This document shows positions 2,949 through 22,564 of a stretch of 32,389 bases of DNA, one piece after another (the stretch's first letter is position 1; every line of letters begins with the position of its first letter). The stretch spans positions 1 through 32,389 of IMG/VR virus record IMGVR_UViG_3300032087_003461. The stretch is one strand, 5' to 3'. A model generated the notes under the pieces. The model did not search any database, was not told the DNA's origin, and was given only the letters and a program-made list of their open reading frames with translations. Position numbers and translations under genes: made by a program. Source of the stretch: a virus.

Positions 2949-2970
2949 GCAGAGAAATTTGCGTAAAGAG

Positions 2971-2995
2971 AAGGGAGAATTTACTCCCTTTTTTT
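2971..2995 (+). terminator. Intrinsic terminator of the first early operon
   Basis: AAGGGAG (2971-2977) pairs with CTCCCTT (2984-2990) around a 6-nt AATTTA loop, followed by a run of T to 2995. It closes the 114-2948 operon. Confidence 0.85.
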
Positions 2996-3000
2996 ATGTC

Positions 3001-3024
3001 TTAAAAATTTTCGGTTCGGCGAAA
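3001..3024 (-). terminator. Possible minus-strand terminator
   Basis: Read on the minus strand, TTTCG and CGAAA form a 5-bp stem (3020-3024 with 3009-3013), followed by ATTTTT. It is weak, but it sits where transcripts from the minus-strand RNA or the bS21 operon would meet the convergent plus-strand operon. Confidence 0.4.
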
Positions 3025-3129
3025 GTTGCTCTTTTTTAAGACGAATTTTTAGTAATGTGTAAGATTTGTTTAGTTTTTAAAGATAAGTCTGTTTTTATAC
3101 AGCTTAAGTGATTAACACAATCAAAGACT

Positions 3130-3268
3130 GTGTTTTTTCCCAGAAAGGGATAAGACCAAACACCCCAGTCCCTCATCTTAGGATTCGTGACTGTGGATTG
3201 TTACCCAATCCTGTTTAGGGAAAACCAGTCTGGTTGGTGGTTTGGTTTGGTCATCTTATAAATTAGAT
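3130..3268 (-). ncRNA. Candidate structured non-coding RNA
   Basis: No open frame of note exists here, but the stretch holds several nested inverted repeats. An outer 8-bp stem GACCAAAC/GTTTGGTC (3154-3161 with 3245-3252) encloses TCCCT/AGGGA (3169-3173 with 3217-3221), a GGATTG/CAATCC hairpin (3195-3200 with 3206-3211) and an AACCA/TGGTT hairpin (3223-3227 with 3231-3235). A promoter-like sequence at 3275-3303 points into it on the minus strand, so that strand is proposed. The 3' end is not clear. It matches no RNA class that I recognise. The stems are visible in the sequence; the RNA itself is inferred. Confidence 0.45.
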
Positions 3269-3274
3269 ATAATT

Positions 3275-3303
3275 ATTATACCACAAAATTCGGCATAAGT
3301 AAA
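3275..3303 (-). promoter_or_regulatory. Minus-strand promoter before the structured region
   Basis: On the minus strand, TTTACT (3303-3298), a 17-bp spacer and a perfect TATAAT (3280-3275) form a sigma70-type promoter with predicted start near 3268. It lacks the AAAAATANTTC upstream element of the main promoter family. Confidence 0.55.
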
Positions 3304-3385
3304 GATTTATTTTTTGAAGGTCATTGAATACCGAGTAAAAACGAGTTACCTTAATGTAAAAATAAATTATTTTTCTGAAATGAAG

Positions 3386-3661
3386 TTATAAATCTTCGTG
3401 CTTTTCTTCGGTAGGTAATGCGTCAGACACTCTTAGCTTTTTTAGTTTACGGTCTTGCGCTTTCCAGTTTTGTAAAAGTTCCTTTTCGGCTTGATTTTTT
3501 CGGCGATTTCGACGAATCGCTGCTTGTCGAGTAGCATTTCTTTTAATGCTTGGTTTTTTATATTCTTTGCGTTCTAGCAATTCTTGTTTGAGTTCCTTGC
3601 CATAAGCTCGAAATTTTCTTAATGCTCTGTCTAGTTTCATATGCTTTGTATTAATTTTCAA
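3386..3661 (-). CDS. rpsU-like: Phage-encoded ribosomal protein bS21 homologue
   Basis: This strongly basic protein has 91 residues from TTG 3661, or 94 from GTG 3670. Residues 10-55 follow the bS21 pattern: LDRALRKFRAY, then ELLERKEYKKPSIKR, then an Ala/Arg/Lys-rich helix. In the E. coli protein the equivalents are DVALRRFKRSC, VRRREFYEKPTTERKR and the basic C-terminal helix. It is about 20 residues longer than cellular bS21, with a charged tail. bS21 sits on the 30S platform near the 3' end of 16S rRNA, where mRNA is selected; phage bS21 genes are known from marine phages. TTG 3661 overlaps the upstream stop (TTGA) with AAGGTGG in front, so it is preferred. It is the second gene of a minus-strand operon after a helix-turn-helix gene. 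Confidence 0.75.
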   Translation of the reverse strand: MKINTKHMKLDRALRKFRAYGKELKQELLERKEYKKPSIKRNATRQAAIRRNRRKNQAEKELLQNWKAQDRKLKKLRVSDALPTEEKHEDL

Positions 3662-3807
3662 AATGTCCACCTTCTCTTTCTTAAGTACTGAACTTGCTTT
3701 CTTATGCTATTTTCAGTTCTACCTAAATGCTCAGACATTACTCGCACAGGTAAGTTTGAGTAATTATCTTTGAGGTATTGTCTTTCTTTGTGTGTCCATT
3801 CTTTCAT
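3658..3807 (-). CDS. Mini helix-turn-helix protein, 49 aa (Myb/SANT-like)
   Basis: The frame from ATG 3807 to TGA 3658 encodes a single trihelical domain: it begins MKEWTHKERQYLKDNY, with LPVRVMSEHLGRTENSIRKQ as the second and third helices, and ends in a basic tail. It is the same fold as the larger helix-turn-helix proteins elsewhere in the window. The minus-strand promoter at 3814-3842 places its transcription start on the ATG, so the message is predicted to be leaderless. It is divergent from the plus-strand promoter at 3860 and coupled to the bS21-like gene. A role as regulator of this divergent switch is plausible but inferred. Confidence 0.7.
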   Translation of the reverse strand: MKEWTHKERQYLKDNYSNLPVRVMSEHLGRTENSIRKQVQYLRKRRWTF

Positions 3808-3813
3808 TCCTCT

Positions 3814-3842
3814 ATTATACTTCAAGTTAGGCAAAAAGTCAA
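3814..3842 (-). promoter_or_regulatory. Minus-strand sigma70-type promoter of the family
   Basis: On the minus strand, TTGACT (3842-3837), a 17-bp spacer and TATAAT (3819-3814) are preceded by an AT-rich AATTC upstream element like that of the other copies. The predicted start is at about 3807, the first base of the 49-aa gene. Its -35 box is only 17 bp from that of the divergent plus-strand promoter. Confidence 0.85.
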
Positions 3843-21415: not shown

Positions 21416-22043
21416 ATTTAATCAGAGCAAAGGTTCAGCTCAAAAAGAAAAAATAGAATCATATGTCTATACAGGCAAAGAAAATCATCATGTAAGATTA
21501 GTTGGTGATTTACTACCTAGATATTTATACTGGGTAAAAGGTGAAAATAATAAGAATCTACCTCTTGAGTGTTTAGCTTTCGATAGAAACACAGAAACAT
21601 TCAACAACAAAGAAGTAGACCATGTGCCTTCTTACTATCCAGATCAAAAATGTGCTTGGTCTTATGCTATTCAGTGTATTGACTACAGTGGAAGCGAACC
21701 AAGTATCAAAATCTTTAATCTAAAGAGAAAGTTGTTTGACCAAATAATGACTGCTTCTGAAGATTTAGGAGACCCAACTGATACGGAAACAGGGTGGGAC
21801 GTTTATTTCAAAAGAATTAAAACAGGCCCTCAAGTATTTAATGTGGAGTACCAGTTACAAGCATTGAAATGTAAACCAAGAGCACTCGATGAGAGTGAGC
21901 AGGAGCTTATTGCAAATCTAAAGTCAATGGACGATGTTCTTCCAAGACCTACAGCTGATGCGCAGTTAGAGCTTCTAAAAAGAATAACTGAAGAAGGAGG
22001 CTCAGTTGATGAAAGTATTTCATCAGAGTTTGATGTAGAATAA
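21405..22043 (+). CDS. gp32-like: Single-stranded DNA-binding protein, gp32-like
   Basis: The 212-residue protein carries the gp32-type core: VRLVGDLLPRYLYW, then LPLECLAFDRNTETF, a Cys-containing zinc-like stretch (DQKCAWSYAIQCIDY), and a long acidic C-terminus (SVDESISSEFDVE) that in SSBs recruits partners. It coats single strands in replication and recombination. AGGAG lies before the ATG. It is followed by peroxiredoxin and then the gp47/gp46 genes. Confidence 0.82.
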   Translation: MAIKFNQSKGSAQKEKIESYVYTGKENHHVRLVGDLLPRYLYWVKGENNKNLPLECLAFDRNTETFNNKEVDHVPSYYPDQKCAWSYAIQCIDYSGSEPSIKIFNLKRKLFDQIMTASEDLGDPTDTETGWDVYFKRIKTGPQVFNVEYQLQALKCKPRALDESEQELIANLKSMDDVLPRPTADAQLELLKRITEEGGSVDESISSEFDVE

Positions 22044-22564
22044 TGATTGGAGTAGGAGAAAAGTTTCCGCCTTTTAGATTAAAAGGTGTGAATGAAAATA
22101 ATGAAATCGTAGAAGTTTCTGTTACAGAAAACTATGAACCATTGAAGCATGACTACACCGTAGTTTATTTCTATCCAAAAGATTTTACTTTTATCTGTCC
22201 TACAGAAATTGCAGGTATGGATTTATTAGTAAATAGAGCCAATGTAATCGGTATTAGTGGCGATAATGAGTTTTGTAAGTTAGCTTGGAAAAAAGATAAC
22301 GAACTTATTTCAAATATAAAACACCCTCTTGCTTGTGATGGCATGTTAAAATTGTCTTCACAACTAGGAATAGTAAATGAGTTTGAAGGTGTTTGCTACA
22401 GAGCAACATACATTATAGATAAAGAGTCCGTTATACAACATGTAAGTATAAATGCACTTGACACAGGCAGAAATGCAAATGAAGTTTATCGAACTTTACG
22501 AGCAATTCAAGCAGGTGGACTAACAGGTTGTGAATGGCAACCAGGAGATGACTTCGTAGCATGA
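22043..22564 (+). CDS. ahpC-like: 2-Cys peroxiredoxin (AhpC type)
   Basis: The 173-residue protein has the thioredoxin fold with YFYPKDFTFICPTE, in which C52 is the peroxidatic Cys, and the resolving Cys C163 in LTGCEWQPG, typical of AhpC/Prx1 enzymes. It reduces hydrogen peroxide and organic peroxides, using thiols as reductant. A phage copy is an auxiliary metabolic gene that could protect phage DNA synthesis or ribonucleotide reductase from oxidative stress. It sits between SSB and the recombination nuclease, with overlaps at both ends (TAATG, ATGA). Confidence 0.93.
   Translation: MIGVGEKFPPFRLKGVNENNEIVEVSVTENYEPLKHDYTVVYFYPKDFTFICPTEIAGMDLLVNRANVIGISGDNEFCKLAWKKDNELISNIKHPLACDGMLKLSSQLGIVNEFEGVCYRATYIIDKESVIQHVSINALDTGRNANEVYRTLRAIQAGGLTGCEWQPGDDFVA

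Follow-up and report, generated by a model that had tools for sequence, protein, structure and literature searches.

The window analyzed here, a linear IMG/VR virus record of 32,389 bases, very probably contains an independent phage gene for a noncoding RNA, which belongs to an undescribed family and has a sigma70-type promoter and a conserved P3/P2 hairpin. The same promoter and RNA occur in twelve close and about 60 distant relatives (uncultivated IMG/VR phages), beside the same flanking gene; the upstream gene for a phage ribosomal protein bS21 is also present in the relatives whose sequence covers that side. The conserved promoter and core, the strong compensatory change and the lack of an Rfam match bear out a preliminary description of the locus as a candidate new structured RNA. 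The family is undescribed as far as Rfam 15 and the open-access literature extend, an earlier description elsewhere being possible. Few structured RNAs are as well conserved as this one, which is kept in 31 or more diverged lineages of phages, and its place just downstream of phage bS21 hints at a possible role in the takeover of the host ribosome.

The Locus and Its Relatives

The RNA lies in an interval that had been described as lacking protein genes and as flanked by convergent ones. Indeed, the open reading frames of the window leave no protein gene from 2949 to 3385, and the neighbors are located at 2646-2948 on the plus strand and at 3386-3834 on the minus strand. The plus-strand gene encodes a protein of a 100-aa HTH-like family, used as bait for distant relatives. 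It is followed by the terminator of the plus-strand operon (2971-2995, plus strand, GGGAG..CTCCC T7), whose predicted fold has an energy of -17.3 kcal/mol (z = -5.5). On the minus strand, a 94-aa gene for a probable divergent phage bS21 (3386-3670) is situated directly upstream of the RNA promoter, and a 58-aa HTH-like gene, similar to PHROG 323, a D5-like transcriptional regulator (2e-9), is found upstream of bS21 at 3658-3834. After bS21, an AT-only perfect inverted repeat, AAAAATAATTTATTTTT, is observed at 3358-3374; it is kept in the close relatives seen, and it is a possible terminator of the bS21 transcript.

The matches of the 3386-3670 protein to TIGR00030 (E 5e-4, 19.9 of 28.95 bits) and PF01165 (E 0.018, 15.2 of 27 bits) are below the curated cut-offs, so default annotation easily misses the gene. 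Its positional homologues in the other types score over the cut-offs (4.5e-8 to 2.5e-16) and share residues with it when aligned; judged by these similarities, the protein is probably a divergent phage bS21.

A search with the 3386-3670 gene (minus strand) yielded twelve IMG/VR contigs with 74-97% protein identity, in which the downstream spacer, where present, is 73-93% identical to that of the window. The family of the 2646-2948 gene (plus strand) has 452 relatives in IMG/VR, from which 32 and then 80 loci were taken. Given the size of this marker family, marine phages may commonly carry the RNA. No annotated phage carries a protein of this family, and the window, its RNA and types C and D have no DNA similarity to cultured phages beyond chance AT-rich matches; the match to HTVC111P was rejected as a 32-nt AT-rich stretch within a coding gene. 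In host genomes the pattern CTGGGGTGTTTGGTNTTAT has six matches, approximately the chance number, and these are not accompanied by other elements of the RNA. The DNA polymerase shares 43% identity with the enzymes of Vibrio phages, which we take to be T5-like. The window also encodes a phage-borne AhpC/TSA-family peroxiredoxin (22043-22564, plus strand; PF00578, 2e-22).

Promoter and Ends of the RNA Gene

A minus-strand promoter of the form TTTACT-17-TATAAT, reported earlier to be aimed into the interval, is present at 3303-3275 with an added TG extension. It comprises the -35 box TTTACT (3303-3298), a distance of 17 nt, and TG with the -10 box TATAAT (3283-3275), and it is kept in all close relatives of the window. 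Among 45 loci, drawn from those where the RNA had already been recognized, the strict promoter pattern was found downstream of the plus-strand neighbor gene and antisense to it in 44, compared to four cases in the sense orientation and no antisense case upstream of the gene; in Markov shuffles, the rate is about 1%. Overall, 58 of the 68 loci have the strict promoter. The other ten are four loci in which a type D RNA comes after a TACAAT variant, L137 with a -35 variant, and a distant clade of five (L075-L078 and L081). The stretch after the L140 promoter may be a candidate RNA or a coding leader; L053 looks coding. Extended -10 boxes TGNTATAAT are over-represented in the window as a whole (8 vs. 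2.7 expected), with positions 3275, 3880, 10436, 13513, 13593, 17734, 19981, and 21000.

The whole RNA gene probably spans about 266 nt (3003-3268, minus strand). Both ends were deduced from the conserved block, which extends from approximately 7 nt past the -10 box to a U-tract, and the covariance model match covers 3268-3093. The probable transcript end is a conserved 3' box, ACTAAAAATTCG...CGAAAATTTTT (3003-3050, minus strand). This AAAAT5+ box is present in 24 of 50 loci, with 3% expected, mostly at +247 to +310 (median about 267) and once at +420. In the close relatives, a box ending in AAAATTTTT is kept about 266 nt after the start; the promoter and the sequence behind it are conserved, and the plus-strand terminator beyond the AAAATTTTT box varies freely. 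The RNA had been assigned to 3130-3303, and it is indeed there, but the bounds have to be shifted. We propose that host RNA polymerase transcribes the minus strand from about 3268 to the U-tract near 3003 and terminates at that tract, 3269-3303 being the promoter; furthermore, a conserved pairing partner of the core, at 3141-3115, is partly outside the earlier interval.

The inverted repeats of the region could belong to DNA rather than RNA, as parts of an origin, a packaging site or a spacer between convergent terminators. We consider this very improbable: the position is intergenic and the flanks are AT-rich, as for such an element, but there is a conserved promoter specific to one strand, unequal internal loops and G-U pairs give the repeats an RNA-like character, and the terminator role is already filled by 2971-2995.

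Conserved Core and Covariation

As deduced from the alignments, the pairs that covary make up a long irregular hairpin, the core of the RNA, with P3 closing P2. From 5' to 3', the P0 hairpin is followed by a short single-stranded stretch that is conserved, and then by the P3/P2 hairpin and a tail that varies; the conserved 3' box, consisting of an A-tract and a U-tract, comes last. All coordinates of the helices refer to the minus strand. P0 (AUCU..AGAU, 3253-3268) has the form AUCUAA/UUAGAU in L007; in type D it is 92% paired, with one two-sided change. The outer part of the P3 5' strand (CAC...AGACUG, 3226-3239, aligned to the covariance model R1) pairs over a long range with the P3 3' strand (CAGUCU...GUG, 3115-3130): AGACUG/CAGUCU in the window corresponds to AGUUAGUCU/AGACUAACU in L007 and GUCUAUUC/GAAUAGAC in L010. 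Two-sided changes were observed in 12 of the 13 outer P3 pairs (26 sequences) and in all four of four pairs of P3b, formed by UUUUCCC (3218-3224) and GGGAAAA (3135-3141). The P2 hairpin (AUCC-A-CAGUC ... GACUG-GGGU, 3162-3198) has two-sided changes family-wide, e.g., CAGUC/GACUG in the window vs. CAGCU/AGCUG in L003. The sequences of the helices are fully turned over between lineages, while the pairing is kept. A further stem closing the 5' and 3' ends, UUGAUA/UAUCAA, was rejected as weak, with 71% of cells paired vs. 67% in shuffles.

For types A-C (15 sequences, alignment A5, made without structure), 95.3% of the P3 and P2 cells are paired, compared to 76.9% in shuffles. Two-sided changes affect 13 of 21 pairs and 59 cells vs. 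8.4 and 18.5, respectively, in shuffles, with none of 500 shuffles as high. When the partner strand was slid by 1-3 columns, pairing fell to 27-45%, the scored structures having been read from the same alignments, which favors them over the slid versions. In type D (12 sequences, aligned separately), 18 of 39 pairs have compensatory changes, and there are 48 two-sided cells vs. 17.6 (0/500 shuffles). As the shuffles ignore the relatedness of sequences, weight is carried by the sliding of the partner strand and by type D, which was analyzed separately.

The model R1 was built from the distant types A-C alone, with no sequence of the window's clade. Still, it finds the window RNA at 3268-3093 with 49.8 bits (E 6e-8 over 76 loci), the next match in the window having just 16.6 bits, and it also finds the rest of the window's clade. 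The window locus has the features of the R1 family: the promoter, the P3/P2 core, and the place, with the 100-aa HTH gene at one end and the bS21 side at the other. With the window's clade included (26 sequences, the alignment fitted to the model), 21 of 24 pairs have two-sided changes. The mean energy of the P3 duplex in 31 lineages, defined by less than 30% of 8-mers in common and thus not fully independent, is -17.9 kcal/mol for the cognate strands, -10.7 for non-cognate and -11.7 for shuffled ones; the cognate pairing is stronger in 31/31.

The 8-bp Stem

The structure originally drawn for this region was organized around an outer 8-bp stem, here called P1. This perfect stem does exist in the sequence (3154-3161 with 3245-3252), as do the internal repeats, GGATTG/CAATCC and shorter ones; however, most of the drawing is not the conserved structure. 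Its density of stems had been considered to be above chance, a claim that is not borne out by the window alone: for the minus-strand fold, z = -1.4, with 16 of 200 shuffles folding equally well. The plus-strand fold of the interval has z = -2.3, and with these values the single-sequence structure is weak evidence. Across 45 RNAs, the mean z of the minimum free energy is -2.3.

Compensatory changes in the 8-bp stem had been named as the key test, and none of its changes is two-sided. The P1 5' strand, GACCAAAC (3245-3252, minus strand), is complementary to 3154-3161 and conserved in the window's clade only, and the sole change in the 3' strand, GUUUGGUC (3154-3161, minus strand), converts a G-C pair to G-U. 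The stem is otherwise invariant and intact in close relatives, but missing from the wider family, and so is not its key helix. The covariation that had been sought is clearly there, but in P3 and P2. The partner of GACCAAAC is carried by an insertion after P2 in the window's clade; therefore, P1 and P3 together would form a pseudoknot. P1 is best described as a local elaboration of this clade, backed by conservation and complementarity without covariation, that could thread the core into such a pseudoknot there. An HDV-like topology of the pseudoknot form, with P1/P3 and an inner hairpin, was rejected for its overlong junctions and the absence of a match in Rfam.

Comparison With Known RNA Classes

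In the window, Rfam 15 gives no match and ARAGORN no tRNA or tmRNA, and the RNAs of relatives tested against Rfam have no match either. This agrees with the initial impression that the RNA resembles neither tRNA, tmRNA nor 6S RNA. The same impression regarding riboswitches proved right: the gene downstream is convergent, a U-tract box closes the block, and the lack of a same-strand gene directly downstream argues against any cis-acting riboswitch or leader. Type III toxin-antitoxin RNAs are not matched either, as the RNA is single-copy, has no tandem pseudoknot repeats, and is followed by a gene in the opposite orientation. Like tmRNA, it is a phage RNA gene, and in two relatives, L105 and L150, tmRNA is found in the same neighborhood; there, a permuted tmRNA of the alphaproteobacterial kind exists as a gene of its own besides the new RNA. 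GOLLD and ROOL are structured noncoding RNA genes associated with phages, of unknown function; they are much larger than the new RNA, which has no Rfam match.

It is very improbable that the transcript is a short mRNA encoding a small protein of the phage. A 52-codon ORF starts from an ATG near +15 in L063 only (RNA positions 15-173), and certain members of type B reach about 30 codons. At the same time, no ORF is common to the types, L008-L014 have lost the ATG, the indels have lengths not divisible by three, and the mean longest ORF is 28 aa vs. 22 (sd 11) in shuffles.

With no gene downstream and no conserved ORF, the RNA would act in trans, through its structure. As the shape rather than the sequence is kept, it would be recognized as a structure, most likely by a protein. 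A rival reading is a 6S-like decoy, whose long hairpin would mimic an open promoter and bind host RNA polymerase. The single long irregular hairpin with internal loops, the similar size class and the strong promoter of its own are in line with this, but the Rfam 6S match is absent and the alignments contain no constant central bubble of the 6S size, making the decoy unlikely.

Linkage to Phage bS21

A bS21 gene was found in the flanking sequence of 40 out of 68 loci; in each of these it is upstream of the RNA and on its strand. In 29 loci it is 77-156 bp before the RNA promoter; in others, including some type D phages, it is 1-3 kb or several kb away, and the RNA keeps its place. Of 35 contigs with the RNA, 30 also have bS21, and the other five are fragments of at most 33 kb; of eight contigs without the RNA, none has it (two of the eight exceed 90 kb, and two of the eight, L083 and L085, are doubtful relatives). 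This linkage can be explained by shared ancestry, as the phages with the RNA belong to a single clade, in which synteny would be enough to produce it. In annotated phages, bS21 yielded 11 weak matches, mainly to records without annotation, and none is informative on the RNA. The known loci of phage-encoded bS21 (HTVC008M; Bacteroidetes phages) also come from aquatic phages, but no neighboring RNA was found in two papers describing them.

In many loci the RNA directly follows bS21 on the same strand, and it ends in a U-tract, as would a part of the bS21 operon that serves as 3' UTR, processing site or terminator and does not act in trans. This seems improbable, given the RNA's own conserved promoter 77-156 bp past bS21 and its staying in place where bS21 is 1-3 kb off.

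We tentatively suggest that the partner of the RNA might be the translation apparatus, reached via the phage's own bS21, whose gene is upstream on the same strand. The analogy is with OLE, a structured RNA of Bacillota bound by bS21 (PMC12054373). Both are structured noncoding RNAs linked to bS21, here by gene linkage alone; OLE is cellular, about 600 nt long and has a Shine-Dalgarno/anti-Shine-Dalgarno mimic, whereas the new RNA is phage-borne, about 265 nt long, and has neither a constant mimic nor Rfam similarity to OLE. The mimic helix was rejected as a family feature, as in 45 RNAs both CCUCC (0.04 vs. 0.06 expected) and GGAGG (0.04 vs. 0.07) are at or below chance; AGGAG has 0.38 vs. 0.13.

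Phage bS21 is incorporated into ribosomes and reduces translation in vitro; with the pelagiphage protein, ribosomes make only ∼5% of the normal protein, which the authors explain by further virus or host factors perhaps being needed, or by this bS21 being not fully compatible with E. coli ribosomes (PMC6375957). An RNA adjacent to bS21 bears on why ribosomes with viral bS21 alone are nearly inactive in vitro, and offers a direct test of why phages carry bS21. Conceivably, though we would not call it likely, the RNA is a structured partner of phage bS21 in a ribonucleoprotein that loads, stores, steers or limits the viral protein during ribosome takeover. The proximity and co-occurrence of the two genes, the OLE precedent and the behavior of phage bS21 in ribosomes speak for such a partnership; the sufficiency of shared ancestry, the non-conserved mimic and the distance of several kb in some type D phages speak against it. 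It is rather doubtful that this ribonucleoprotein would go as far as altering 30S subunits to favor phage messages, as a viral counterpart of OLE-bS21.

Other RNAs in the Relatives

In L075, L076, and L077, which belong to the clade without the RNA and without bS21, the intergenic stretch downstream of the HTH gene has GC-rich inverted repeats (e.g., GGCGG...CCGCC in L076) and may be another structured RNA. The permuted tmRNAs, of the alphaproteobacterial two-piece type, are located at L105:3736-3992 and L150:880-1136 (both plus strand; 108 and 95 bits to RF04321). They are a hint that the hosts are alphaproteobacterial. Finally, L114:1919-1950 (plus strand), next to tRNAs, matches the abiF RNA (RF03085, 45 bits).
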